Shown here: positions 54,474-59,093 of the stretch, one piece after another | How the letters are laid out: each line of letters begins with the position of its first letter | How positions within the stretch are numbered: the first letter of the stretch is position 1 | NCBI GenBank assembly: GCA_947649645.1 | Contig: CANSSP010000002.1 | Coordinates: 1-64,000, forward strand | Direction of reading: 5' to 3' | DNA length: 64,000 bases | DNA from: an uncultured Roseburia sp. | GTDB taxonomy: Bacteria; Bacillota; Clostridia; Lachnospirales; Lachnospiraceae | Position numbers and translations under genes: made by a program | The notes under the pieces: model-generated | The model's database searches: none | Told to the model about the DNA's origin: nothing | What the model saw: only the letters and a program-made list of their open reading frames with translations

Positions 54474-55608
54474 CTAATCCTCTCCTATTGCACCTTTTGG
54501 ACACCCCAGTGAAAGCCACTTCAGATACCCGTTCATAAAAAGGTCAAGTCCTCCGTCCAGCACGCTGTCTGTATTTCCCGTCTCAACGCCCGTGCGGTGA
54601 TCCTTTACCATCGTATATGGCTGCATGACATAAGACCGTATCTGACTGCCCCAGCCGATCTCCGACACTTCACCGCGGATGCCGGCCGCTTTCTCCGCAT
54701 TCTCCTGCTGCTTTAAAAGATATAGCTTTGCCTTGAGCATCTGCATCGCCTTATCTTTATTCTGAAACTGAGACCGCTCATTCTGGCACTGTACCACGAT
54801 TCCCGTCGGAAGATGTGTGATGCGGATCGCGGACGACGTCTTATTAATATGCTGTCCGCCCGCACCGCTCGACCGGTATGTGTCTATCCGTATCTCATCC
54901 TCGTTGATCTCAATATCAAGGTCTTCCTCAAGCTCCGGCATGACATCACAGGAAACAAACGATGTCTGTCTTTTGCCTGCCGCATTAAACGGTGAGATAC
55001 GGACGAGACGATGCACCCCTTTTTCGGATTTCAGGTAGCCGTATGCATTTTCCCCGTTCACCTGGAACGTGACGGATTTAATGCCTGCTTCCTCGCCGTC
55101 CAGAGAATCCAGCACTTCCAGCTCAAATCCTTTGTCCAGCGCCCACCGCGAATACATACGGCAGAGCATCGCCGCCCAGTCGCAGGATTCCGTACCGCCC
55201 GCTCCCGCATGGAGGGAGACAATGGCATTATTTCTGTCATATTCGCCGGACAGCAGCGTCTTTGTGCGGATTCCTTCAAACCGGTTCGAAAATTCACACA
55301 AAAGTTCCTCAATCTCGGGGATCAATGACGCGTCATTCTCTTCATACCCCATCTCAATCAGCGTCTCTATGTCCTCAAACTGTGTCTTTAATGCGGCAAA
55401 AGTAGCCACATCATCCTTCATGCTCTTTAATTCTTTCATTTTCGTCTGGGACATGGCCGGATCATTCCAGAAATCCGGCGCCTCCATCTCCCGCTCTAAT
55501 TCCTGTATCCGCTGTTCTTTGCCGGCCAGGTCAAAGTGAATCCCTCACTTCCCGCAGCGGATCCCTGTAAGAGTTCAGGGTTACTTTAAATTGATCAAGC
55601 TCTACCAC
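54474..55608 (-). CDS. prfB: Peptide chain release factor 2 with programmed +1 frameshift
   Basis: Zero-frame GTG at 55608, 25 codons to CTT, TGA at 55533-55531, then +1 frame DLAGKEQRIQELEREMEAPDFWNDP...; GGQHINK motif. Confidence 0.95.
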
Positions 55609-56799: not shown

Positions 56800-58722
56800 C
56801 TATTCCTCAACGAAAATCATCAGATCCTCCTGATGCGCCTTACTCATCTTATGCCGCGCTTTCCGGTTCTCCACCGAATCAAATACAATGGAAAAATCAT
56901 AATCCTCCGGATATAATTCTTCCGCCCTCACTTTCAGTTTCAGCCGTTTCTGATTTACAATGCGTTTCTCTTTCTGGATCTGCACAAGAACATTTCCATC
57001 GCCGTCCTCAGACTTTACTACAATCCCGATTTTCTCCTCCGGAGATACGATGACACTGTCCCCCCTGCAGAACAAAGGCGCTGCTTTTCCTTTGGCTTTT
57101 TTCTGTTTTTTTATCCGCGGCGCCGGAAGCTTTTTCAGCTTTCTGTCTTCTTTCGGACACGTCTCCTTAAGCTCCAGCTCACCTGCAAGGCGTGGCGAAA
57201 CCGTCCCGTATGCCGCCAGAGCCGCATTTTTAAGCATTTCTTCCGGTACGCCGAGCCTTTTTGCAATATAGAGCGCGCAGCTCTCGCCCGCCTGTCCGGT
57301 TTCAAGACGATACAACGGTCTTAAACTGTCCCTGTCAAAGGCCATACGGGCGTTTTCAATCTCCGGACAACGGTCCGCATACTCTGCAACTTCCGGATAA
57401 TGCGTCGTCGCGAGAAACAGACAGCCAGACTTTCTGAGTTCCTCCAGAATCGCAATTGCAATCCCCATCCCTTCCGCCGGGTCTGTCCCGGACCCAGGTT
57501 CATCAAGAATGACAAAACTCTCCGCGTTGATGCTTCGAAGAATCGTGAGAACATTCCCGATATGTGCGGAAAAAGTAGACAGATTATCCGTCATGTCCTG
57601 CCCGTCTCCGATATCGCAGAGAACCTGGCTGTTCATAGTGACCACGGCGCTCTCGCAGGGAACATGAAGCCCCGCTCCGGCCATCTGACAAAAAAGAGCC
57701 GCCGTCCTGATCGCAACCGTTTTTCCCCCAGTGTTGGGTCCCGTGATCACGATCCCCCGCGTCCGGCCCCCAAGTTCGATATCGAGCGGCACGCAGGTTT
57801 CCCGGGGCAGCATCGGATGTCTGGCTCCCGTCAGGCGAAGCAGACGTTTTGTGTTTACCTCAGGCTCCACGGCGTCCATGTCCAGACTCAGTTTTCCCTT
57901 TGCGAACACAAAATCCATTTTCACCAGAATGCGGATATCTTCTTTTAACAGCGCCTCTTCCCCGGCAATCCGGTCGGAGAGCAGATATAAAATACGGCGC
58001 ACTTCGGAATCTTCCTCAATGCCAAGCAGTTCGATCTCTTCTCTGAGTCCCGCAGCCGCCTCCGGCTCTACAAAGAGCGTCGCCCCTGTAGAAGAAGCAT
58101 CCACAACATTCCCCCTTATCTTTGCCCTGCACTCTTTTCTGACCGGAAGACAGACACGGCCATTTCTGGTCACAACAAAGGCTTCTGTCAGATAAGCCTT
58201 ATTCGTCCTGAGAAGGCGCTCCACCCTGTCTTTTATTTCCTGTTGCTTTATCTCCAGCTCCTTACGGATTTCTTTTAAAAACCCGGAAGCATAGTCGTCC
58301 ACGCGGCCGCCGCGGACAGCGTTTGCGATCTCACTGGACAGCTCTTCCGGAATGCGGAGATTGTCACAGTAGAATGCCAGCCCGATCTGTTGCTCTTTTC
58401 CTTTTTCCAGGTAAGATTTCATGCGGTTTACGGCAGTTAAAAATCCACCGACCGCTTCAATCTCCTCCGCCGTAAGCATCTCTCCGCGCACCGCCGCGTC
58501 TATCTTCTCATCCATTGCTTCCATCAGAGGAATCGGCGGCGTGCCGATCTTTTCAAGACAGATACGCGCCTGCGTCGTCTCCCGCAGATTCCGCCGCAGC
58601 TCATCTTCTGCGAGATACGGGGTCAGCGTCGCCGCAAGGTGTTTTCCCGGAACGGTATTCGCACAGTCGGCGAGGCGTTTTCTGATTTCTTCAAAACCGG
58701 TCATTTCAAATGTATGATTCAT
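56800..58722 (-). CDS. MutS2-like ATPase lacking the C-terminal Smr domain
   Basis: GPNTGGKTVAIRT, VILDEPGSGTDPAEG, ATTHYPEVAEYA; protein ends without an Smr domain. Confidence 0.85.
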   Translation of the reverse strand: MNHTFEMTGFEEIRKRLADCANTVPGKHLAATLTPYLAEDELRRNLRETTQARICLEKIGTPPIPLMEAMDEKIDAAVRGEMLTAEEIEAVGGFLTAVNRMKSYLEKGKEQQIGLAFYCDNLRIPEELSSEIANAVRGGRVDDYASGFLKEIRKELEIKQQEIKDRVERLLRTNKAYLTEAFVVTRNGRVCLPVRKECRAKIRGNVVDASSTGATLFVEPEAAAGLREEIELLGIEEDSEVRRILYLLSDRIAGEEALLKEDIRILVKMDFVFAKGKLSLDMDAVEPEVNTKRLLRLTGARHPMLPRETCVPLDIELGGRTRGIVITGPNTGGKTVAIRTAALFCQMAGAGLHVPCESAVVTMNSQVLCDIGDGQDMTDNLSTFSAHIGNVLTILRSINAESFVILDEPGSGTDPAEGMGIAIAILEELRKSGCLFLATTHYPEVAEYADRCPEIENARMAFDRDSLRPLYRLETGQAGESCALYIAKRLGVPEEMLKNAALAAYGTVSPRLAGELELKETCPKEDRKLKKLPAPRIKKQKKAKGKAAPLFCRGDSVIVSPEEKIGIVVKSEDGDGNVLVQIQKEKRIVNQKRLKLKVRAEELYPEDYDFSIVFDSVENRKARHKMSKAHQEDLMIFVEE

Positions 58723-58842: not shown

Positions 58843-58876
58843 CGAAAAACCCGCGGACACTTTCTCCACGGGTTTC
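58843..58876 (-). terminator. Intrinsic terminator of the ncRNA
   Basis: 10-bp stem 58848-58857/58865-58874 with T-run. Confidence 0.85.
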
Positions 58877-59058
58877 CTGATCTGCGTTCTGCCGGATTCT
58901 CTCTGACTGAGGTATCCCGCCTCTCGTACACCTTCCATGGGCAATGGGCACAAAAATAACAGGCGCGATCTGCCGCACCGGATATCTCATCCCATCTTCT
59001 ATTATTTCCTCCCACAGTCCGATACAATTAACATACGTTTACGCTTCCTTATTTTATT
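58843..59058 (-). ncRNA. Unidentified structured RNA gene, ~215 nt
   Basis: Consensus promoter at 59065-59093, no convincing CDS, multiple nested hairpins, intrinsic terminator AACCCGTGGA-GAAAGTG-TCCGCGGGTTTTT at its end. Confidence 0.7.
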
Positions 59059-59064
59059 TTCTTT

Positions 59065-59093
59065 ATTTTATCCACACTGTCCGCACTTGTCAA
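59065..59093 (-). promoter_or_regulatory. SigA-type promoter of the ncRNA
   Basis: TTGACA-N17-TAAAAT on the minus strand. Confidence 0.88.

Follow-up and report, generated by a model that had tools for sequence, protein, structure and literature searches.

In Listeria monocytogenes, the resistance gene hflXr (lmo0762) lies behind rli80, a leader with a promoter, a short open reading frame, alternative RNA structures and a terminator, and it encodes a homolog of a ribosome-splitting factor, made drug-inducible by its uORF attenuator; the short RNA is also seen alone (PMC6310831). The leaders of vmlR, cplR and other ARE ABC-F genes have a very short uORF inside a 5' hairpin, followed by a terminator, and the gene downstream encodes an ATPase that acts on drug-stalled ribosomes (PMC9226507, PMC10201436). 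Bacillus subtilis MutS2 also acts on ribosomes: its ATPase splits collided ribosomes and its KOW domain binds uS10, loss of mutS2 gives sensitivity to chloramphenicol, tetracycline and erythromycin, and without the SMR domain the binding to collisions is sharply lower (PMC10897456; PDB 8qpp, 8r55, 7qv3).

The leader described here lies in the window, the whole stretch of 64,000 nucleotides that was analysed, in front of a gene for a MutS2-like protein without SMR domain (Table 1). With the erm, ABC-F and hflXr attenuators it has in common its own promoter, a conserved uORF preceded by a Shine-Dalgarno sequence, the placing of this uORF in a 5' helix, and an intrinsic terminator. It has no sequence relation to the hflXr leader, whose uORF is 14 codons long with an RLR motif and whose product is an HflX homolog and not a MutS2 ATPase. 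The uORFs of the ARE ABC-F genes read MIN, MR[I/M] or MK[L/Q], as compared to the M(L/S)xV type found here, and their products belong to another protein family; the cplR terminator also hides the Shine-Dalgarno sequence of its gene, which is not seen in the window leader. We consider it likely that this 5' leader regulates the SMR-less MutS2 paralog by ribosome-mediated transcription attenuation, and that the gene is turned on when a ribosome stalls. The leader-peptide attenuator is a known kind of element; this type is not in Rfam and serves the SMR-less MutS2 family, and in the open literature that we searched we found no report linking MutS2 with a leader peptide; the single paper in which both terms occur is a Pseudomonas review that mentions each of them one time.

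Table 1. Features of the leader and of the gene behind it, in window coordinates.
Feature	Position	Strand	Basis or remark
Sigma-A promoter of the leader	59065..59093	minus	TTGACA-N17-TAAAAT, 11/12 consensus bases
Shine-Dalgarno sequence of the uORF, AAGGAAG	59044..59050	minus	Sequence; SD score 5 nt
Span bounded by the outer helix, GCGT (59044-59041) / ACGC (58887-58884)	58884..59044	minus	MFE fold
uORF, 10 codons, MLIVSDCGRK-stop, region 1 of the proposed switch	59002..59034	minus	Conserved in orthologs; coding-type variation
Inner hairpin 1, GGAT-GAGAT-ATCC	58980..58992	minus	MFE fold; region differs in the three-species consensus
Inner hairpin 2, GGTGCG-GCAGAT-CGCGCC	58962..58979	minus	MFE fold; base changes in G053 and G050 preserve pairing
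Region 2, GCCCATTGCCCATGGAAGGTGTACG, predicted partner of the uORF strand	58925..58949	minus	Pairing with the uORF
Intrinsic terminator between leader and MutS2-like gene	58845..58874	minus	Hairpin and T run, about -16 kcal/mol
Putatively regulated gene, 640-aa MutS2-like ATPase	56800..58722	minus	KOW domain; conserved tail replaces SMR

The earlier note saw no convincing CDS in this RNA, which was a mistake, as the 10-codon uORF is preceded by a Shine-Dalgarno sequence and conserved in orthologs. It begins about 24 nt past the expected transcription start and reads ATG TTA ATT GTA TCG GAC TGT GGG AGG AAA TAA. In the nearest relative, G053, which is 86% identical over the leader region, the only difference in the uORF is synonymous, TCG to TCA, and in G050 the peptide is MLIVSFRGRK-stop. 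One regular expression, composed after part of the data had been seen and used identically on the controls, found a uORF in 66 of 84 upstream regions of orthologs, some of them by chance (G107, G076 and G354, for instance), as compared to 10 of 258 random 600-mers and none of the regions before the 18 true MutS2 genes tested, so that the uORF leader sets the window gene apart from true MutS2. The ortholog uORFs are 4 to 14 codons long, the length variants differ by whole codons, and typical peptides are MLSVIVMEKIAK, MLRVVVMENTAN, MLIVSVKGYTAK, MLIASEYGA, MLSVVGE and MLTA. Among 75 curated leaders both the start codons (ATG 51, TTG 23, GTG 1) and the stop codons (TAA 56, TAG 13, TGA 6) interchange. 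In the 33 uORFs of twelve codons the third codon position is the most variable, and the synonymous share of single-base codon differences is 35%, as compared to 21% expected. From this variation we infer that the uORF is translated. Short uORFs also precede homologs beyond the family (MSVSVVMVIFN, MSVLSVKVINN, MLERVLSV, MIVGVLN, MSVVSI), for instance MSVVGI and MSVAGI in contigs labelled Enterococcus and Listeria, MLGVVLN in Cytobacillus and MSVNVLN in Paenibacillus; thus uORF-preceded homologs occur in other Clostridia and in Bacilli as well.

Orthologs were gathered at the level of the genus, of the family (397 genomes; Lachnospiraceae, as judged from Roseburia relatives) and of the class, and their upstream regions were then read. 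The MutS2-like gene is common in the family and was present in 78 of the 397 genomes. Searching the genus with the DNA sequence gave two convincing homologous leaders only, those of G053 and G050, and the others were collected via the protein. The usual order is a sigma-A promoter, a Shine-Dalgarno sequence, the uORF, hairpins, the terminator and the MutS2-like gene; no recognisable leader was found directly upstream of the ortholog in G333, G334, G398 and G370, and a few of these leaderless orthologs are in operons. A conserved 263-aa ORF ends immediately upstream of the MutS2-like gene in G197, G334 and G240. The promoter is found at the place claimed for it before, and 65 of 74 relatives have a promoter scoring at least 10/12 before their uORF, as compared to 3.6% in shuffles. 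The promoter is retained although the upstream neighbour gene varies among species, which implies that promoter and leader move together with the gene. The strong terminator also lies where it had been claimed, with the arms AACCCGTGGA and TCCGCGGGTT at 58874-58848 (minus strand) followed by Ts, and in G053 a change in the 3' arm preserves the pair (G-U to A-U). This predicted terminator is more than a chance hairpin, since a terminator is found at the same site in dozens of relatives, 3' of the conserved promoter and uORF. The 71 leaders analysed for pairing have a single-hairpin terminator. Many leaders of one subgroup of relatives (L039, L040, L042, L043) carry another terminator behind the first, its stem reading CCATGG/CCATAG, and attenuation may there use two stop signals.

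The 219 nt of the minus strand fold to -70.9 kcal/mol (z = -3.49), and 1 of 200 shuffles was as stable. Both inner hairpins described in the earlier note, and its possible outer pairing of GCGT with ACGC, appear in the MFE fold; the outer helix is kept in G053 and partly compensated in G050. Pairing between the uORF strand and region 2 was seen in 69 of 71 leaders and is cognate-specific, with a mean rank of 0.115 where 0.5 is expected. The covariation that the earlier note had asked for is seen in these strands, and in a consensus structure of 16 leaders from one subgroup 93% of the cells are paired and 13 pairs have changed on both sides, values that 0 of 500 shuffles matched. In the window leader and in those of its nearest relatives, G053 and G050, the helix between uORF and region 2, the outer helix and the terminator all hold, with some compensatory changes. 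Comparison among relatives thus supports the promoter, a conserved and apparently translated uORF, the predicted helix between uORF and region 2, the terminator, and one family of downstream genes.

We propose that during normal translation the ribosome would complete the uORF and depart, the free uORF strand would pair with region 2, and RNA polymerase would halt at the terminator (OFF). A ribosome stalled on the uORF, most likely through a ribosome-targeting antibiotic, would mask the uORF strand, leaving region 2 free to disturb the terminator, and the MutS2-like gene would be transcribed (ON). Unless it carries a stalled ribosome, the transcript probably ends prematurely; by analogy with rli80 of Listeria the resulting short RNA may accumulate, in which case it would be a by-product of attenuation. 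Region 2 is complementary to the loop and the 3' arm of the terminator, and is the candidate partner of these when the uORF is occupied. The complementarity is moderately cognate-specific across the family (mean rank about 0.28-0.31), with about a third of the leaders in the best tenth; it is strong in G311, G400, G315 and G107 and weak in the window copy. Between region 2 and the 5' arm of the terminator, and between the uORF and the terminator arms, there was little or no pairing signal. Equilibrium folding with the uORF masked showed the switch clearly in few leaders only (G186, G392, G115, G028, G016), and the terminator persisted in most, including the window copy (0.99 vs 0.99). For this reason the antitermination step is one that we infer, and folding during transcription, or pausing, may be needed for it.

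It is conceivable that the signal is an amino-acid shortage and not a drug. Leaders of the ilv type work in this way, and Leu, Ile and Val abound in the uORFs here, whose consensus ML(S/I)V(V/I)VMEKIAK has many branched-chain residues. However, uORFs as short as MLTA, MSV and MLSVVE exist, there is no run of one regulatory codon, and the downstream genes (MutS2-like, ABC exporter, GNAT, methyltransferase) are not biosynthetic, so that we find such a sensor improbable. A covariance model of the 16 leaders gave 34 matches in 33 of the 397 genomes, and those that were placed are mostly before MutS2-like genes. In four genomes (G409, G240, G224, G197) an ABC exporter operon follows the leader, and the exporter ATPase is nearest to DrrA in the two of four ATPases that were typed. 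One match stands before a GNAT gene (G227), another before a methyltransferase gene followed by a MutS2-like gene (G354), and in G016 a leader recognised by reading the upstream region itself is directly before a GNAT gene, with the MutS2-like gene behind it. Resistance determinants often belong to these types (exporters, GNAT proteins and methyltransferases), which suggests that the proposed stall-sensing attenuator responds to drugs. The leader-preceded operons for ABC-2-type exporters (DrrA-like ATPase and permease) were located at L153 1501-2833, L163 1501-2894, L168 1501-2871 and L169 1501-2880, and MutS2-type leaders immediately 5' of GNAT acetyltransferase genes at L164 1501-2280 and L044 (G016) around 650-1455.

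A contig labelled E. faecalis has a homolog with a KDGP aldolase on one side and an alkaline phosphatase on the other. Strain V583 has an eda-like enzyme as EF2975 (PMC7701990) and an alkaline phosphatase as EF2973; these match the flanking genes of the contig, and the homolog should therefore be EF2974. With chloramphenicol, EF2973 is up at all three times in V583, as one of 15 such altered genes (PMC2902013, Table 1). Read-through of the attenuator would explain this induction of a neighbour of the homolog, which gives indirect support to the drug as inducer.

The MutS2-like protein matches TIGR01069 (MutS2) over residues 2-501 with 522.7 bits and has a PF00488 (MutS V ATPase) match; the clamp region is present, and the KOW region (GDSV...VQI...KRLKL) aligns with that of true MutS2. 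The MutS-type ATPase and the KOW domain are thus common to this protein and B. subtilis MutS2 (PMC10897456), and the window protein differs in its lack of SMR, in its conserved tail and in that the genome has a second MutS2-family copy, at C11:95312-97057 in an open frame of 804 aa. The HGKG motif of SMR was found in 0 of 49 proteins of the short family as compared to 19 of 19 true MutS2, and in place of SMR the short proteins have the conserved tail PEDYDFSIxFDxVENRKxRH. In the tree the 49 short proteins are separate from true MutS2, with deep branches and a support of 0.45 for the grouping node. By analogy with B. subtilis MutS2 and with HflXr, the short protein probably serves in inducible ribosome rescue, and with its ATPase and KOW domain it would split or rescue stalled ribosomes. 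As the loss of SMR sharply cuts the collision binding of B. subtilis MutS2, the short protein may act differently.

MutS2 proteins have long been described as anti-recombination nucleases, and the attenuator could work as proposed while its product serves recombination or repair of DNA. This long-standing description speaks for such a role; against it are the KOW domain with its VQ motif, which is kept, and the nuclease-type SMR domain, which is absent. It would also be unusual for a DNA factor to be controlled by a stall-sensing leader, and B. subtilis MutS2 acts on ribosomes (PMC10897456), which makes a product in DNA metabolism decidedly improbable.

The earlier note took the RNA for a free-standing, abundant ncRNA gene. 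A structured RNA, driven by a promoter, ended by a terminator and outside Rfam, is what we also find; its being a free-standing gene is not. No Rfam family, be it 6S, raiA, SRP, T-box or any other, reached the gathering threshold in the leader, a relaxed search gave chance matches only (best E >= 1.7), and the leaders of 12 relatives had no match either. The strong promoter and terminator, the stable fold and the distance of about 130 nt from the terminator to the next gene would suit an RNA acting in trans. On the other hand, the element behaves as a cis-acting leader: it goes with one gene family in most relatives and across many genera, it holds a conserved ORF that appears to be translated, its inner sequence varies while the uORF and its pairing persist, and the stretch from the terminator to the MutS2-like gene yielded no sigma-70-like promoter. 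We therefore regard a trans-acting RNA as very unlikely. That the structured 5' leader with its terminator is a ligand-binding riboswitch is hardly credible, since it has no conserved aptamer-like core and no Rfam match, and its most conserved strand is the translated ORF. Amino-acid attenuation, the riboswitch and the trans-acting ncRNA are all ranked below the attenuator that senses drugs or stalling.

A wider reading, which we regard as evenly balanced, is that the SMR-less MutS2 family of Clostridia and Bacilli is an unrecognised drug-inducible factor for ribosome rescue or resistance, under its own M(L/S)xV class of leader peptides, which would also control the ABC exporter, GNAT and methyltransferase genes. 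If true, this would be the third type of ribosome-acting NTPase under uORF attenuation, besides the ABC-F proteins and HflXr. Commensals would then be predicted to tolerate translation inhibitors intrinsically and inducibly, and the leader peptides would form a conserved set in which reporters could directly show the specificity of stalling.

Searches of plasmids and phages gave distant homologs of the MutS2-like protein. Two of the records, L137 (OR846885.1) and L138 (OR846605.1), are labelled as Listeria and Enterococcus phage and resemble bacterial chromosome, and the neighbours there are a glycerol facilitator-like protein, KDGP aldolase and alkaline phosphatase. Elsewhere in the window, the RF2 (prfB) ORF at 54474-55487 starts inside the usual protein and may have the known programmed frameshift upstream, and positions 1-51 are the 3' part of a tRNA (RF00005, 39.4 bits), cut by the window edge.
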